Assembly (NCBI GenBank): GCA_024640505.1
Contig: JAHEEV010000010.1
Location: forward strand, 1-63,390
DNA: 63,390 nucleotides
From: Halieaceae bacterium
Lineage (GTDB): Bacteria > Pseudomonadota > Gammaproteobacteria > Pseudomonadales > Halieaceae
Direction of reading: 5' to 3'
Shown: positions 291 through 34,630 of the stretch, piece by piece
How the letters are laid out: every line of letters starts with the position of its first letter
How positions within the stretch are numbered: the first letter of the stretch is position 1
Program-made: the position numbers and the translations under genes
The notes under the pieces: generated by a model
What the model saw: the letters and a program-made list of their open reading frames with translations, nothing else
Told to the model about the DNA's origin: nothing
The model's database searches: none

Positions 291-1355
291 CTAATTGACC
301 TGCGCCTTGAGCTCGCCGGCCTCATAGGCGCTGGTCATCACCGCCAGGGACTTGACCCGGATCTTGTCGGCATTGCCGGCGGTCCCGAAGGCCTCGTAGC
401 GGGCGATGCAGATATCGCGCATGGCCTCGATGGTCTTGCCCAGGTATTTGCGTGGATCGAACTCGGACGGGTTCTGCGCCATGAAGCGGCGGATCGTGCC
501 GGTGGAGGCCAGGCGCAGGTCGGTATCGATATTCACCTTGCGCACCCCGTGACGGATCCCTTCCTGGATCTGCTCCAACGGCACGCCGTAGGTCTCGGGG
601 ATCTCACCGCCGAATTCGTTGATGATGGCCAGCCAGTCCTGGGGTACGGAGGAAGAGCCGTGCATTACCAGGTGGGTATTGGGAATGCGCTTGTTGATCT
701 CCACGATGCGTTCAATGGCCAGGATATCGCCGGTGGGTGGCCGGGTGAACTTGTAGGCCCCGTGGCTGGTGCCGCAGGCTATCGCCAGTGCATCCACCTC
801 CGTGGCCTTGACGAATTCAGCGGCCTCTTCGGGGTCGGTGAGCATCTGGTCGTGGGTCAGGGTGCCCTCGGCACCGATCCCATCCTCCTCGCCCGCCTCG
901 CCGGTCTCCAGGGACCCCAGGCAACCCAGTTCCCCCTCCACTGACACGCCGCAGGCGTGGGACATCTCCACGACGCGGCGGGTGACCTCCACGTTATAGT
1001 CGTAATTGGTCGGGGTCTTGCCGTCCTCCCCCAGTGAGCCGTCCATCATCACCGAGCTGAAACCCAGCTGAATGGAGCGCTGGCAGACGGCTGCCGATGT
1101 GCCGTGATCCTGGTGGACCACCACGGGAATGTGGGGGAACTCGTTCATGGCCGCTTCCATCATGGCTCGCAGGAAGGGGGCGCCGGCGTATTTGCGCGCC
1201 CCCGCGCTGGCCTGCATGATGACCGGCGAGTTGGTTTTGTCCGCCGCTTCCATGATGGCGCGGGTCTGCTCCAGGTTGTTGACATTGAACGCCGGGACTC
1301 CATAGCCGTGTTCTGCGGCGTGGTCCAGCAACTGGCGCATACTGATTAAAGCCAT
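291..1355 (-). CDS. fba: Class II fructose-bisphosphate aldolase (Calvin-cycle subtype)
   Basis: A 354-residue cytosolic zinc-dependent aldolase that interconverts fructose-1,6-bisphosphate with glyceraldehyde-3-phosphate and dihydroxyacetone phosphate. Class II features visible are VVHQDHG (metal-binding His and the catalytic-region Asp), [10 protein letters not shown] and the phosphate-binding KVNIDTD segment. The length and the [23 protein letters not shown] start match the so-called Calvin-cycle subtype widespread in proteobacteria, which does not by itself imply CO2 fixation. AGGAG precedes the ATG by about 7 nt. It is the last gene of the tkt-epd-pgk-fba run; a REP-like repeat follows the stop. 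Confidence 0.95.
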
Positions 1356-19968: not shown

Positions 19969-20403
19969 GTGAATTCGCACGCCCGCACAGTGCTCGCCTT
20001 CGACTTCGGCCTGAAACAGATAGGTGTTGCGGTGGGCAATTCCCTGCTGGGCACCACCCAGCCCCTGTCGGTCATCGCGGCGAAGGAGGGGGTGCCGGAC
20101 TGGCACACAGTGGGCGCCCTGATCGAGGAGTGGCGCCCCGATCTCCTGCTGGTTGGGGACCCCCTGAACATGGATGGCAGCGAAAGCGATCTGGGAAGGC
20201 GCGCACTCAAGTTTGCGCGCCGCCTCGAGGGCCGGTTCGGCCTGCCGGTGGCTAGGGTGGATGAGCGCCTCAGCAGTTTCGAGGCCAAACAGTCCAGCCG
20301 GGAGCGGGGGCACAAGGGCGACTACCGGGCCCGGCCGGTGGACGCTTATGCCGCCGAGATCATCCTGCAATCCTGGCTGGCGGAAAACCCCCCGGCCGAT
20401 TAG
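19969..20403 (+). CDS. ruvX: Pre-16S rRNA nuclease (YqgF/RuvX)
   Basis: 144 residues, RNase-H fold: VLAFDFGLKQIGVAVG carries the first catalytic Asp, and VDERLSS and the C-terminal DAYAAEIILQ supply the others. YqgF processes the 5' end of 16S rRNA. The start is a GTG at 19969 just after GGA; no better ATG is in frame. Its end overlaps the convergent pilU stop by 4 bp. Confidence 0.92.
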   Translation: MNSHARTVLAFDFGLKQIGVAVGNSLLGTTQPLSVIAAKEGVPDWHTVGALIEEWRPDLLLVGDPLNMDGSESDLGRRALKFARRLEGRFGLPVARVDERLSSFEAKQSSRERGHKGDYRARPVDAYAAEIILQSWLAENPPAD

Positions 20404-21539
20404 CGGGCGAAGAAGTTGCCCGCGTCCTCCTCTTCGTCCACCGCCAGGTCGAAACCGCCGCCGGTACCGGCCCTGCCCTTTTCGAACATCTTGATCTGCA
20501 GGCGCACATCGTTGGCGGAATCGGCGTAGCGGATAGCGTCTTCCTTGCTGATAACGCCGTCCTTGAAGGCCTGAACCAGGGACTGGTCCAGGGTCTGCAT
20601 GCCCAGTTCCGTAGACTTGGCCATCAGATCCTTGATCAGGTGCACCTCGCCCTTGCGGATGTAATCGGCAATCAAAGGTGTGTTCAGCAGGACTTCCACG
20701 ACAGGAGCCCGTCCCTTGCCATCCTTACGCGGCAGGAGCTGCTGTGCCACCATGGACCGCAGGTTGAGGGAGAGGTCCATCCACACCTGGCGATGCATGT
20801 CCGCCGGGAAGAAGCTCTGGATGCGGTCGAGGGCCTGGTTGGCGTTGTTGGCGTGCAGCGTGCACAGGCAGAGGTGACCGGTTTCCGCAAAGGTCAGGGC
20901 CTGCTGCATCGTCTCCGCAGAGCGCACCTCGCCAATCATGATGACGTCCGGCGCCTGGCGCAGGGTGTTCTTCAGGGCGACATCAAAAGACTCCGTGTCC
21001 ACGCCCACTTCACGCTGGGTGACGAGGCAGGAACCATGCTCGTGCATGAATTCGATGGGGTCCTCGATGGTGATGATATGTCCGCGGCTGTTGTGGTTGC
21101 GATAGCCCACCATGGCCGCCAGGGAGGTCGACTTACCCGTGCCGGTGGCCCCCACGAAGATGACCAGCCCGCGCTTGGTCATCGACAGCTCCTTGATGAT
21201 GGGGGGCAGGCCCAGTTCGTCGATATCCGGGATGTCGGTCACGATCCGGCGCAACACCAGCCCGCACTGACCGCGCTGTATGAAGCAACTGACACGGAAA
21301 CGACCGAGGCCGGGGCTTGAGAGAGCGAAATTGCTCTCGGAGTGCTCGATGAACTCCCGTTGCTGTTTCTCGTTCATGGTGGACATGACGATGTCATGGG
21401 CCTCCTCGGGCGTGAGCGCGTGCTCGGACACCGGCAGTATCGCGCCATCGACCTTGATACTCGGCGGCGCCATGGCCGCGATAAACCCGTCCGAGGCCCC
21501 TTCCTTGACCACCCTCTCCAGTAATTCCTCGATCTTCAT
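20400..21539 (-). CDS. pilU: Type IV pilus retraction ATPase paralogue PilU
   Basis: 379 residues with Walker A GATGTGKST, the Asp box region ITIEDPIEF, and the His box HLCLCTLHANNANQAL of PilT-class ATPases. The C-terminal extension ending in an acidic DEEEDAGNFFAR tail and location directly downstream of pilT identify it as PilU, an accessory motor that helps PilT retract pili and drive twitching. The ATG at 21539 (MKIEELL) is preferred to one two codons upstream. No pilin genes are in the window. Confidence 0.93.
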   Translation of the reverse strand: MKIEELLERVVKEGASDGFIAAMAPPSIKVDGAILPVSEHALTPEEAHDIVMSTMNEKQQREFIEHSESNFALSSPGLGRFRVSCFIQRGQCGLVLRRIVTDIPDIDELGLPPIIKELSMTKRGLVIFVGATGTGKSTSLAAMVGYRNHNSRGHIITIEDPIEFMHEHGSCLVTQREVGVDTESFDVALKNTLRQAPDVIMIGEVRSAETMQQALTFAETGHLCLCTLHANNANQALDRIQSFFPADMHRQVWMDLSLNLRSMVAQQLLPRKDGKGRAPVVEVLLNTPLIADYIRKGEVHLIKDLMAKSTELGMQTLDQSLVQAFKDGVISKEDAIRYADSANDVRLQIKMFEKGRAGTGGGFDLAVDEEEDAGNFFAR

Positions 21540-21569
21540 CCCCACAGTCCCCCTGTGATTATTCTCTTA

Positions 21570-22604
21570 CTAGAAATTCTCCGGCATCCGGGCTTTCTCC
21601 CGGGCAACCTCACGGTTGATGATACGTTTTTCGACCAGTTCCTGCAGACACTGGTCCATGGTCTGCATGCCCAACGCGCTGCCGGTCTGGATGGCCGAGT
21701 ACATCTGCGCCACCTTATCTTCACGAATCAGGTTGCGTATGGCGGACGTCCCGCGCATGATCTCCCAGGCCGCAACCCGGCCTCCCGTTGCCCGCTTGAG
21801 CAGCGTCTGGGACACCACCGCCTGCAAGGATTCGGACAACATGGAGCGGACCATGGATTTTTCCGCCGCCGGAAATACGTCAATGACCCGGTCGATCGTC
21901 TTGGCCGCCGACGTGGTATGCAAGGTACCGAACACCAGGTGGCCCGTCTCCGCCGCGGTCAGGGCCAGGCGAATGGTCTCCAGGTCGCGCATCTCACCCA
22001 CCAGAATGATATCCGGGTCCTCCCGCAGCGCCGAGCGCAGGGCCTCCGCAAAGCCCAGCGTATCCCGGTGTACCTCCCGCTGGTTCACCAGGCACTTCTT
22101 GCTCTCGTGCACGAATTCGATCGGGTCTTCGATGGTCAGTATGTGCTCGTACTTGTTGTCATTGATGAAATCTATCATGGCCGCCAGGCTGGTGGACTTG
22201 CCGGAGCCGGTAGGGCCGGTCACCAGCACCAGTCCGCGCGGCATCATGGAGATATCGCGGAAGACCTGGCCCATGCTCAGGTCCTCGAGGGTGAGCACCT
22301 TGGAGGGAATGGTACGGAAGACGCCTCCGGCCCCGCGGTTGTGGTTGAAGGCATTGACCCGGAAGCGGGCCACACCCGGGACCTCGAAGGAAAAGTCTGT
22401 TTCCAGAAACTCCTCGTAGTCCTTGCGGGTCTTGTCGTTCATGATGTCGTAGATCAACTCATGAACCTGCTTGTGCTCCATCGGTGGCAGGTTGATGCGG
22501 CGAATGTCGCCATCCACGCGAATCATTGGCGGCAGGCCCGCCGACAGGTGCAAATCAGACGCGCCCTGCTTGGCACTGAACGCCAGAAGCTCTGTGATAT
22601 CCAT
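21570..22604 (-). CDS. pilT: Type IV pilus retraction ATPase PilT
   Basis: 344 residues, the canonical PilT length. Walker A is GPTGSGKST, followed by ITIEDPIEFVH and the His box HLVFGTLHTTSAAKTIDRV; AIRNLIRE in the C-terminal domain is a PilT signature. The ATG at 22604 has GGGGAA 4 nt upstream; earlier in-frame starts lack this. A cytoplasmic hexamer depolymerises pilin at the inner membrane. pilU follows 30 bp downstream, and yggS is divergent. Confidence 0.96.
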   Translation of the reverse strand: MDITELLAFSAKQGASDLHLSAGLPPMIRVDGDIRRINLPPMEHKQVHELIYDIMNDKTRKDYEEFLETDFSFEVPGVARFRVNAFNHNRGAGGVFRTIPSKVLTLEDLSMGQVFRDISMMPRGLVLVTGPTGSGKSTSLAAMIDFINDNKYEHILTIEDPIEFVHESKKCLVNQREVHRDTLGFAEALRSALREDPDIILVGEMRDLETIRLALTAAETGHLVFGTLHTTSAAKTIDRVIDVFPAAEKSMVRSMLSESLQAVVSQTLLKRATGGRVAAWEIMRGTSAIRNLIREDKVAQMYSAIQTGSALGMQTMDQCLQELVEKRIINREVAREKARMPENF

Positions 22605-22736
22605 AGGTTCCCCTTTTTCGCCGGCTATGGCCGCCGGCCCGTCCCTCTCCCATTCCGCCTGGTGGCCATACAACGCCACTGCACGGTTTTATTCTTAAGT
22701 CGCCCGTCACGCCCCGAATCGGCTAAGATTCGCCGC

Positions 22737-30992: not shown

Positions 30993-31023
30993 ACTGTGTT
31001 CTCCATGTCGCGGGTTGGCGATT

Positions 31024-31050
31024 TTAGCACTCATTGTATTAGAGTGCTAA
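31024..31050. promoter_or_regulatory. Perfect CIRCE (HrcA) operator upstream of rpoH
   Basis: TTAGCACTC (31024-31032), nine bases, then GAGTGCTAA (31042-31050): an exact match to the CIRCE consensus bound by the HrcA repressor. Read on the minus strand, a -10-like TACAAT sits in its spacer (31033-31038 complement) and TAAAAT overlaps its downstream edge (31021-31026 complement), so bound HrcA would block the rpoH promoter. Adjacent 31079-31110 is almost pure A/T. Confidence 0.92.
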
Positions 31051-31137
31051 TTGCCGGAAAGTTCCCGTAGGGGCAGCAAAATTTAAAAATAATTATTAAT
31101 TAAATCAATGCCTTGTGGCTCATCACCAAAAACCGGC

Positions 31138-32121
31138 TCAATGGGGCTCGATGCGCACCAGATGGCGCGCCACCGCCAGCCAGGCACCGGCCAGGCCCAG
31201 CATCCCCCCGAGGATCACCAGGTTGAGGCCCCCCATCACACCGAGCCCCTCCAGGCGGAAGTCAGTGTCATAGAGGGCTGCCAGTTCCCCCACCGGCTGC
31301 TGCAGAAACCACAGGGAAAGAGCCACCAGCGCTGCCGCGAATACGCCCCCACCCACACCGTACCAGAGGCCCGTATAAAGAAAGGGTCGGCGCACGAAGG
31401 CATTGCTGCCGCCGATCAGCTTGACGACGACGATCTCCTCGCGCCGATTCTCGATTGCGAGGCGGATCGTGTTGCCGAGAATCAGCACGACCCCCAGCAC
31501 CAGCAATCCCCCCACTGCCTGCACCAGCCTCCGGCTGAGCACCATCAGACTCTCCAGGCGCTGCAGCCACTCCATGTCCAGCAACGCTTCTGATACCTCG
31601 GGCAGACCCTCCAGGTTCTGCCGCAGTGCGGCCGCTCCCGCCTCGTCAGCGGGTGATACCAGGATCAGGTGCGGCAGGGGGTTGCTGTCGAGGCTGTCCA
31701 GCACATCACCGAAACCGGAGAGCGTGCGGAACTCCTCGAGAGCCTCCTCCCGTGATATGAAGCGGGTCGCGGCGATATCGGCGCGGGTTGCCAGTCCCCC
31801 CGCCAGTTCCGTGGCGACATCAGTACTCACTTCTTCCTGCAGGAACAGGGAAATCTGGGCGGGGCTTTCCCATTGAGCCCCCAGTCGCCCGAAATTTTCC
31901 AGGGCTACATCAAGCCCCACCGGCAGCGCCAGTGCAATGCCGATAACCAGCCAGGTCAATACACTGGCAACGGGACTCTCCAGCACCCTGGAGAGGCTGT
32001 CGGCTGCCGACAGCCGATGATGGTGGAGCCAGCCGTTGTACTGGTCCCGCAGGCGCGCCCGACTCTCGCTCGCGCCCTCCCGGCGCTCCCGGCGCTCCCC
32101 TTTGTTCCTGCGCGGAATCAC
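31138..32121 (-). CDS. ftsX: Cell-division ABC transporter permease FtsX
   Basis: 327 residues: a basic cytoplasmic N-terminus (RRNKGERRERREGASESRAR), membrane helix near residues 52-72, a large extracytoplasmic loop, and three C-terminal helices. With FtsE it couples ATP hydrolysis to activation of peptidoglycan hydrolases at the septum. The ATG overlaps the ftsE stop by 4 bp (ftsE runs upstream on the minus strand). Confidence 0.94.
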   Translation of the reverse strand: MIPRRNKGERRERREGASESRARLRDQYNGWLHHHRLSAADSLSRVLESPVASVLTWLVIGIALALPVGLDVALENFGRLGAQWESPAQISLFLQEEVSTDVATELAGGLATRADIAATRFISREEALEEFRTLSGFGDVLDSLDSNPLPHLILVSPADEAGAAALRQNLEGLPEVSEALLDMEWLQRLESLMVLSRRLVQAVGGLLVLGVVLILGNTIRLAIENRREEIVVVKLIGGSNAFVRRPFLYTGLWYGVGGGVFAAALVALSLWFLQQPVGELAALYDTDFRLEGLGVMGGLNLVILGGMLGLAGAWLAVARHLVRIEPH

Positions 32122-32783
32122 GAGGCGCCTCCGGCAATGAGCCGGCCCTGGTCCAGGGTGATGATGCGGTGGCGCAAACGCGAAATCAGCGCCAGGTCGT
32201 GACTGGCGATCAGCACCGTGACCCCCACCTGGTTGAACTCCTCGAACAGTTGCATGATCTCGGCAGACAGGGAGGGGTCCAGGTTGCCCGTTGGCTCGTC
32301 CGCCAGCAGGATTTTTGGCTTGGCGACCACCGCCCTGGCGATACCCACGCGCTGCTGTTCCCCGCCGGACAGGCTTACCGGCATGGCGCGCTCCCGGTCG
32401 AGCAGGCCGACCTTGTCCAGCGCCGCCCGCACCCGCCGCCCGACATCCCGCTGATCGTAGCCGGCGATGACCAGGGGCAAAGCGACATTGTCAAAGACCG
32501 GCCGATCGAACAACAATTGGTGATTCTGGAAGACCACCCCGATGTTGCGCCGGTGTTGCGGTATTCCCCGTGAGCCCACAGTGGCCAGGTTTTTGCCATC
32601 CACGCTGACCTGGCCACGGGAGGGCCGCTCCATCAACATGATCAGTCGCAACAGGGTGCTTTTACCTGCCCCGGAGTGTCCGGTGAGAAAAACCAGTTCG
32701 TCGCGATTGATAGCAAAGCTGACTTCACGCAGGGCGTCGTGCCCTTCACTGTATCGCTTGCTGACCCGTTCGAAGCTGATCAT
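32118..32783 (-). CDS. ftsE: Cell-division ATP-binding protein FtsE
   Basis: 221 residues, ABC ATPase. Walker A GHSGAGKSTLLRL, signature LSGGEQQRVGIARA, Walker B ILLADEPTGNLDP and the switch His in IASHD are all present. It powers FtsX at the division site. Overlaps both ftsY (upstream) and ftsX (downstream) by 4 bp, so the three are translationally coupled. Confidence 0.96.
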   Translation of the reverse strand: MISFERVSKRYSEGHDALREVSFAINRDELVFLTGHSGAGKSTLLRLIMLMERPSRGQVSVDGKNLATVGSRGIPQHRRNIGVVFQNHQLLFDRPVFDNVALPLVIAGYDQRDVGRRVRAALDKVGLLDRERAMPVSLSGGEQQRVGIARAVVAKPKILLADEPTGNLDPSLSAEIMQLFEEFNQVGVTVLIASHDLALISRLRHRIITLDQGRLIAGGAS

Positions 32784-33940
32784 GCAGTGGCGTCATCTCC
32801 GGCAAACAGGGCGTCGATGAACTGCTCCGCCTGAAAAGGCCGCAAATCCTCGGCGGACTCACCCACGCCGATGAAGCGGATAGGCAGGCCCAGCTTTTTG
32901 GCGATCGCGAAAATAACCCCACCCTTGGCAGTGCCGTCCAGCTTGGTCAGGGTGATACCGGTGACACCCACCCATTGCTGGAACTGTCCCGCCTGGGCTA
33001 GAGCGTTCTGTCCGGTGCCGGCGTCCAGCACCAGCATCACCTCATGGGGTGCCTCGGGGTCGAGCTTGCCCATCACCCGTACCACCTTGCTCAGCTCCTC
33101 CATGAGATTGTCCTTGTTGTGCAGCCGGCCGGCCGTATCGGCAATCAACACATCCACGCCACGGGACTGTGCGGCCTGCAACGCGTCAAAGACGACCGAC
33201 GCGCTATCGGCGCCGGTGTGCTGGGCGATGACCGGCACGTCGTTGCGCTCACCCCAGACCTGCAGCTGTTCCACCGCAGCGGCACGAAACGTATCACCCG
33301 CCGCCAGCATCACGGAACGGCCCTCGGCCTGGAGGTGCTTGGCCAGTTTGCCGATGGTCGTGGTTTTCCCAACGCCATTAACGCCCACCATGAGAATCAC
33401 ATAAGGCTTATGTCCCACTGGCTGCAGGGGATTCTCGCAGGGCTTGAGCAGGGTCAGCAGTTCCTCCTGCAGCGCAGTTTGCAGCGCTTCGGGATGCGTC
33501 AATTCCTTGCGGGCCACGCGCTGGGTGAGGTGATCGATGATCTCGACGGTGGCATCGACGCCGACATCCGCCAGCAGCAGCCGGGACTCCAGCTCCTCCA
33601 GCAATTCCTCGTCGATCTCCTTGCGGCCCAGGAACAGGGTCCCCATCCCCTGAACCAGTGTATTGCTGGTACGGCCAAGTCCGCGACGCAGGCGGGAAAA
33701 GAAACCCTTCCCACTGGTGGTATCCTCCTGTGGCGCGCTATCCGGCTCGCCGGGCGAACTGTCCGGGGAAGAAGAGGCCTCCTGCGGCTGCGACGGGGCA
33801 TCGGTCGCCGGCTCTGGCGCAGTCTCCTGTGCGGCCGCCTCAGGAACCGGATCGGCCTCTGGCTTCACCTCCGGTGCGACCGGGCTCCCGGATGATCCCG
33901 GCTGGGTATCCGCCGCTTTCTTGCGTTTGAAAAGTTTCAT
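32780..33940 (-). CDS. ftsY: Signal recognition particle receptor FtsY
   Basis: 386 residues. An acidic, Pro/Ser/Glu-rich A domain (residues about 10-80, containing many E, D and P) precedes the NG GTPase: Walker A GVNGVGKTTTIGKLA, DTAGRLHN, and TKLDGTAKGG. It docks ribosome-SRP complexes to the membrane. The ATG at 33940 (MKLFKRKK) is chosen because the basic start is typical and the upstream open frame overlaps the rsmD gene. Divergent from rsmD by 102 bp. Confidence 0.95.
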   Translation of the reverse strand: MKLFKRKKAADTQPGSSGSPVAPEVKPEADPVPEAAAQETAPEPATDAPSQPQEASSSPDSSPGEPDSAPQEDTTSGKGFFSRLRRGLGRTSNTLVQGMGTLFLGRKEIDEELLEELESRLLLADVGVDATVEIIDHLTQRVARKELTHPEALQTALQEELLTLLKPCENPLQPVGHKPYVILMVGVNGVGKTTTIGKLAKHLQAEGRSVMLAAGDTFRAAAVEQLQVWGERNDVPVIAQHTGADSASVVFDALQAAQSRGVDVLIADTAGRLHNKDNLMEELSKVVRVMGKLDPEAPHEVMLVLDAGTGQNALAQAGQFQQWVGVTGITLTKLDGTAKGGVIFAIAKKLGLPIRFIGVGESAEDLRPFQAEQFIDALFAGDDATA

Positions 33941-34042
33941 AGTCGTCGTGCTAAAGTGCGCGGGCGGGCGCCCGCGGAAAGCGCCTATCCTACCATCCTT
34001 GGCGGACCTGTTAACACCGCCGGGCCGGGCTCGAGCGAGGAA

Positions 34043-34630
34043 ATGAAACAGACGACGAAAACGGGCCAGCTGCGGATCATCGGGGGCCAGTGGCGTGGAC
34101 GGAAGCTGACCTTCAGTCCGGTACCGGGTCTGCGGCCCACCGCCGACCGGGTGCGGGAAACGCTCTTTAACTGGCTCGCGCCCGTTATTCACGGCGCCCG
34201 CTGTGTCGATCTGTACGCCGGCAGTGGCGCGCTGGGGCTGGAGGCCCTATCCCGCGGGGCCGCCTACTGCGATTTCGTCGACATCTCCCCTGTCGCCCTC
34301 GATCAGATCCGTTCGCATCTGAGCGTTCTGGATGCCGCCGACCGGGCCGGGTGTCACAGGGAAACCGCCTCCTCCTTCCTGCAGCATACCGGGCCAGGGC
34401 CGTGGGATATCGCCTTTATCGATCCGCCCTTCGGCGGGGATCTGGTTGCGCCGACCTGTGACCTGCTCGCCCGGAGAAACCTGTTGTCTGCTAACGCCCT
34501 GGTCTACATAGAATCAGGCACCGGGGAGCAAGCGCCGACACTGCCGACAGACTGGTCACTGCACCGGGAAAAGCGTGCTGGCAGCGTCGCCTACCGGTTG
34601 TTCGTTGTCGGCCCCGGGCAAATTGTTTAA
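34043..34630 (+). CDS. rsmD: 16S rRNA (guanine(966)-N(2))-methyltransferase
   Basis: 195 residues. RIIGGQWRGRKL and RPTADRVRETLFNWL at the N-terminus, motif I DLYAGSGALGLEALSRGA, and the catalytic DPPFGG are RsmD hallmarks. It methylates G966 of 16S rRNA. GAGG lies 4 nt before the ATG at 34043. Located divergently from ftsY, as in E. coli; coaD follows 36 bp later. Confidence 0.94.
   Translation: MKQTTKTGQLRIIGGQWRGRKLTFSPVPGLRPTADRVRETLFNWLAPVIHGARCVDLYAGSGALGLEALSRGAAYCDFVDISPVALDQIRSHLSVLDAADRAGCHRETASSFLQHTGPGPWDIAFIDPPFGGDLVAPTCDLLARRNLLSANALVYIESGTGEQAPTLPTDWSLHREKRAGSVAYRLFVVGPGQIV

Follow-up and report, generated by a model that had tools for sequence, protein, structure and literature searches.

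In a Halieaceae bacterium, a perfect CIRCE operator, the predicted binding site of the HrcA repressor, stands in front of rpoH, the gene for the heat-shock sigma factor sigma32. HrcA/CIRCE and sigma32 are commonly described as separate heat-shock strategies. We analysed the stretch of 63,390 nt that holds the locus (the window), its own genome and sets of related genomes. Our reading, to which we assign a probability of roughly 0.7, is that the operator is fused to a double rpoH promoter, and that HrcA would there veto rpoH transcription of both kinds, housekeeping and envelope-stress.

The operator, its genes and its genome

The sequence at 31024-31050, TTAGCACTCATTGTATTAGAGTGCTAA, has both arms exact, as the sequence-only reading of this DNA had proposed, and is the single match in the window; 100 shuffles gave no match, which rules out a chance occurrence. 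The rpoH ATG lies 31 bases downstream of the operator (Table 1). The encoded protein scores above the RpoH family cut-off, and its closest named relatives come from Haliea, Halioglobus and Parahaliea records, the best four being 88 to 83% identical, as would be expected of a Halieaceae genome. The gene order ftsY-ftsE-ftsX-rpoH is the same as in E. coli K-12. Elsewhere in the window, two adjacent minus-strand frames (20400-21545 and 21570-22679) look by eye like PilT and PilU, the type IV pilus retraction ATPases.

Table 1. Features of the rpoH region, in window positions
Feature	Position	Strand	Basis or remark
CIRCE operator (predicted HrcA site), exact	31024..31050	minus	shuffle test and family conservation
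rpoH, sigma32, 285 aa	30135..30992	minus	NCBIfam TIGR02392, 396.2 bits (cut-off 323.1)
GGAG, likely rpoH ribosome-binding site	31001..31004	minus	position by eye
TGCTAAAAT, predicted extended -10 of sigma70 promoter	31021..31029	minus	CIRCE right arm plus three bases
TCTAA, predicted -10 of sigmaE-type promoter	31039..31043	minus	spans CIRCE left arm and spacer
TTAGCA, possible sigma70 -35 (CIRCE left arm)	31045-31050	minus	promoter scan
GGGAACTT, predicted -35 of sigmaE-type rpoH promoter	31059..31066	minus	sequence and conservation
ftsX, neighbour upstream of rpoH	31138..32121	minus	TIGR00439
ftsE, neighbour upstream of rpoH	32118..32783	minus	TIGR02673
ftsY, neighbour upstream of rpoH; start codon uncertain	32780..34192	minus	TIGR00064

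The window's own genome (4.17 Mb in 257 contigs, 91% complete) contains one hrcA match (TIGR00331, 335.6 bits against a cut-off of 197.2), so the repressor gene that the sequence-only reading had proposed to look for is present. One rpoE match above the family cut-off was also found, followed by an rseA-like gene whose protein carries an RseA N-terminal domain (RseA_N, 51.8 bits). The genome-wide motif search suggested in the same reading, run with up to three mismatches, returned two CIRCE sites only, both exact: one before groES, at groESL, and the other before rpoH.

CIRCE-mediated autoregulation of hrcA is usual in Bacillus. Here, no CIRCE with up to three mismatches was seen at hrcA or in hrcA-grpE, ruling out autoregulation of hrcA through CIRCE in this genome. 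Upstream of hrcA there is an imperfect palindrome, TAGCAC..GTGCTG (locus L326, about 893-915, minus strand), with half-sites that are CIRCE-like but differently spaced. Between hrcA and grpE we noticed by eye CTTGAAA-N13-CCCCATAT (locus L003, 1409-1436, minus strand), a predicted heat-shock promoter of textbook form in an operon without CIRCE.

The groESL operator (locus L001, 1501-1527) is identical to the one at rpoH, which places the predicted HrcA/CIRCE control of groESL on the same operator in the same genome. By eye, a sigma70-like promoter runs into this CIRCE and CTTGAAA-N12-CCCCAAT, a putative heat-shock promoter, follows it, so that of the two predicted groESL promoters only the first, sigma70-like one looks HrcA-controlled. 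This arrangement differs from that at rpoH, the groESL operator lacking three features specific to the rpoH site (see below). CTTGA occurs within 13 bases after CIRCE in 26 of the 29 groESL contexts of the family. The sigma32 promoter form given in the available part of PMC545781 fits both CTTGAAA sites, in the hrcA-grpE gap and at groESL.

Two predicted promoters overlapping the operator

Read along the rpoH strand, the operator is preceded at a distance of 8 to 9 bases by GGAACTT, whose GAACTT is separated by 15 bases from TCTAA, the first two letters of which end the CIRCE left arm. Both elements of a P3-type sigmaE promoter, a GGAACTT -35 and a TCnnA -10, are present in the window. Among 131 loci picked by pattern, the distance between -35 and operator corresponds to a promoter spacing of 16 in 86, 15 in 35, 17 in eight and 14 in two.

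At the other end of the operator the sequence takes the extended -10 form TGnTAnnnT. A promoter scan returned TTAGCA-18-TAAAAT, with a preceding TG, as the only promoter-like site there (0.2 expected). The -10-like hexamers that the sequence-only reading had placed inside and beside the operator can be recognised as TACAAT within it (by eye) and TAAAAT at its right edge (from the scan). A further sigma70 promoter, suspected by eye upstream in the AT-rich stretch 31070-31109, is absent from the list of the scan and was set aside.

The CIRCE operator is therefore predicted to be nested in two promoters, one sigmaE-type and one of the extended -10 sigma70 type. Direct repression had been called plausible from the sequence; the overlap of the operator with two predicted promoters, both conserved, makes it more plausible than that reading could know. 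The sequence-only reading had described neither the sigmaE-type promoter nor how well the extended -10 is conserved and how widely the layout occurs.

Conservation of the layout and coupling to hrcA

Within the family (81 genomes), rpoH scored above the cut-off in 77 genomes and as a partial copy in two more. Two of the 79 loci taken had their upstream region cut by a contig end, leaving 77 evaluable loci, picked by RpoH alone and with no promoter pattern. The conservation in relatives by which the sequence-only reading proposed to judge the palindrome holds at every one of them: CIRCE precedes rpoH in 77/77, exact in 60 and with one mismatch in 17. Counting CIRCE with up to two mismatches, 70 of the 81 family genomes have two sites, nine have one, two have none, and none has more than two.

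As a control we used 29 distinct groESL contexts, from the family only. GAAC at -17 to -12 from CIRCE was found at 71/77 family rpoH loci and 0/29 groESL contexts, A at CIRCE spacer base 3 at 72/77 and 1/29, and T at +3 after CIRCE at 77/77 and 1/29, counts that are not independent, the sequences being related. Over all distinct rpoH contexts, the spacer A is present in 209/234 (versus 1/29 at groESL; Fisher p 6e-22, relatedness ignored) and GAAC lies at the expected offset in 218/234, the latter figure being partly circular, as the pattern used to pick 117 of the contexts holds GAACT. Spacer base 3 and the +3 base are absent from that pattern, and the GAAC argument rests on the pattern-free sets. 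The 117 pattern-picked contexts have the spacer A in 105 and the +3 T in 116. Among 33 loci drawn mostly from hrcA-bearing genomes that fail the strict pattern, GAAC, spacer A and +3 T occur in 26, 27 and 32, and among 16 named relatives with CIRCE, in 13, 13 and 16. Counted as distinct contexts, the four sets cover 220 of the 234, the set tallies leaving out 14 that come from other loci. The bases conserved at rpoH are thus those that the predicted promoters need outside the CIRCE arms, and they are not kept at groESL. The sigmaE part is not universal, since six of the 77 family loci keep CIRCE without a correctly placed GAAC.

An alternative is that HrcA acts through the housekeeping promoter only, with GGAACTT unused or independent and no veto over sigmaE. 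The housekeeping -10 is indeed the better-kept part, as the +3 T is found in 77/77 loci and GAAC in 71/77, and the -35/-10 spacing of 15 in the window is unlike the 16 of E. coli. On the other hand, spacer base 3 is needed only for the sigmaE -10, and its A is kept in 72/77 and 209/234 rpoH contexts versus 1/29 at groESL. Relatives without the operator also speak against this alternative. CIRCE within three mismatches is missing in 64 of 80 named relatives, and in 43 of these 64 GAACT is kept in the same position, between 82 and 55 bases ahead of the start codon; among the Pseudomonas-titled loci that lack CIRCE the figure is 30 of 32. GAAC and TGnTAnnnT lie 34 to 36 bases apart in 15 of the 64, as in CIRCE-bearing loci, compared with a mean of 0.34 and a maximum of 2 in shuffles. 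Because many CIRCE-lacking relatives keep GAACT, and some the extended -10 at that spacing, the predicted rpoH promoters appear to exist without the operator.

The known systems point the same way. In the available part of PMC8103513, E. coli rpoH P3 is transcribed by RpoE and is the promoter through which RpoE was found; a Pseudomonas rpoH promoter is dependent on AlgU (sigmaE) according to the available part of PMC4585239. The E. coli promoter, GAACTT-N16-TCTGA after ftsX, shares its -35 and TCnnA -10 with the window and differs in spacing (16, against 15 in the window) and in distance from the ATG (120 bases, against 72). Our E. coli control genome gave no hrcA match and, by eye, no CIRCE upstream of rpoH. 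Taken with the spacer base, these promoters make control through the housekeeping promoter only rather unlikely in our view. Pseudomonas loci have GAACT like the window but no CIRCE within three mismatches, and some also have TGCTAGACT 35-36 bases beyond GAACT. We considered whether the right-hand half in some Pseudomonas loci is what remains of a CIRCE; we take it for an extended -10 that has been retained, which may itself descend from an older CIRCE.

Beyond the family, we looked for the strict pattern GAACT-N8..12-CIRCE at three ranks. It is carried by 62 of the 390 order genomes, which fall into 29 of 143 genera, by 71 of the 369 class genomes (48 of 272 genera and 44 family labels) and by six of the 299 phylum genomes, every one of which belongs to the same class; no genome in these three sets had more than one. 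It precedes rpoH at 133 of 134 distinct places, of which 131 were examined (130 with rpoH directly downstream), the remaining three being family rpoH loci. In the sole exception (genome G523, locus L329) the layout stands before clpB, with CIRCE at about 1510-1536 and, from 1563, a frame that matches the ClpB family and is incomplete where the locus ends. This suggests that clpB may be another HrcA target in that genome.

CIRCE at rpoH is conserved in relatives and coupled to hrcA. Among the 390 order genomes, 96 have hrcA and 53 of these carry the strict pattern. In the other 43 we searched for rpoH and for CIRCE with up to three mismatches, and read the upstream regions: 35 have CIRCE at rpoH (three of them with three mismatches), five do not (G183, G233, G293, G416 and G447, all of family label f40), and in three rpoH is incomplete (G102, G141 and G260). 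In the order as a whole, CIRCE (up to three mismatches) stands at rpoH in 88 of the 93 hrcA-bearing genomes that could be evaluated. Two RpoH genes above the family cut-off were seen in G293, G416 and G432 of label f40; G432 has a weak CIRCE (three mismatches) at one copy only, and G293 and G416 have none.

The 294 order genomes without an hrcA match include nine with the strict pattern, five of them less than 90% complete and four at least 90%. Genome G320 (locus L153; 99% complete) has CIRCE at rpoH without an hrcA match, possibly due to recent loss of hrcA, an assembly gap or another repressor. From the 294, sorted by handle, we searched the first 80 for any CIRCE with up to two mismatches and found it in five; G096, G165 and G169 belong to families with hrcA-bearing members, and two of the five, with 2-mismatch sites only, may be chance matches.

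The coupling bears on whether the palindrome works at the RNA level, as a hairpin of the rpoH leader acting on stability or as a thermometer, and is not an HrcA site at all. A 9-pair stem would form in any transcript starting upstream, and one-sided arm changes include U-G at pair 1-27 in 30/234 contexts and G-U at pair 3-25 in 6/234; because many such changes are wobbles that RNA tolerates, the pairing data alone are compatible with a hairpin. Two-sided changes that keep a pair are, however, very rare (pair 7-21 is the one clear case), the palindrome follows hrcA across the order genomes, an identical operator stands at groESL, and an mRNA beginning at either predicted start would lack part of the hairpin. 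We give the hairpin very little credence.

It is also conceivable that HrcA binds at rpoH with little effect and that, as in E. coli, sigma32 depends on translation and proteolysis. Relatives without CIRCE manage with rpoH, and in rhizobia CIRCE does not always go with strong heat induction or hrcA dependence (PMC3989490, in the part available). Nevertheless, the arms are near-perfect in all 77 evaluable family loci, which argues for steady selection on the operator, although the size of the effect is not readable from sequence; we regard a site of little consequence as quite improbable.

A proposed circuit and its relation to known systems

In the reading that we prefer, an HrcA operator and a double rpoH promoter form one fused element. 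In an unstressed cell, GroEL would keep HrcA active and HrcA would occupy CIRCE, covering the sigmaE -10 in the left half of the operator as well as the sigma70 promoter core, and so blocking RNA polymerase at both overlapping promoters. Misfolded protein would occupy GroEL, HrcA would come off, and rpoH would be transcribed by the housekeeping polymerase; with envelope stress in addition, sigmaE would transcribe it also, the sigmaE input thus being gated by HrcA. Sigma32 would then act at the promoters that groESL and grpE-dnaK have of their own, and the GroEL so made would restore HrcA on CIRCE, closing the loop. We infer HrcA binding, the use of both promoters and repression, and with them a putative cascade from hrcA to rpoH in which misfolding titrates GroEL and rpoH is derepressed. 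The GroEL step would follow work in other species: in Campylobacter jejuni, HrcA binding is raised by GroESL (PMC8533110, in the part available).

Permina and Gelfand are said to have studied these regulons in gammaproteobacteria, and CIRCE at rpoH may well already be known in some of them. Geobacter sulfurreducens, in current taxonomy, belongs to a different phylum. There an exact TTAGCACTC-N9-GAGTGCTAA, the form that the window operator also has upstream of rpoH, lies at -51 of rpoH (Rodionov et al. 2004, PMC545781). According to the same account, as far as its available text goes, CIRCE is found at groESL too, as here, and at hrcA-grpE-dnaK-dnaJ, unlike here; that text mentions no overlapping sigmaE or extended -10 promoters. 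Our literature search returned nothing on CIRCE nested in sigmaE and extended -10 promoters, and among the papers found, going by the parts available, only PMC545781 ties CIRCE to rpoH. CIRCE before rpoH is thus known from Geobacter sulfurreducens, and the fused operator-promoter element may be new.

The fused layout recurs at rpoH in many gammaproteobacteria that keep HrcA, and the two heat-shock circuits are therefore probably wired together there. A more tentative view, which we hold at somewhat less than even odds, is that the fused element is old in Gammaproteobacteria, that lineages such as E. coli and Pseudomonas are remnants in which the promoters persisted and the veto disappeared together with hrcA, and that, since HrcA would veto the sigmaE promoter, a sigmaE signal would reach rpoH only when the chaperonin is also overloaded.

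Changes of single bases in the fused element are predicted to tell HrcA binding apart from each of the promoters, which makes the logic of the element testable on short DNA. With the operator at rpoH in 88/93 evaluable hrcA-bearing genomes of the order, HrcA/CIRCE and sigma32 appear to be stacked, and such stacking would make the repressor-free scheme of E. coli a special case.
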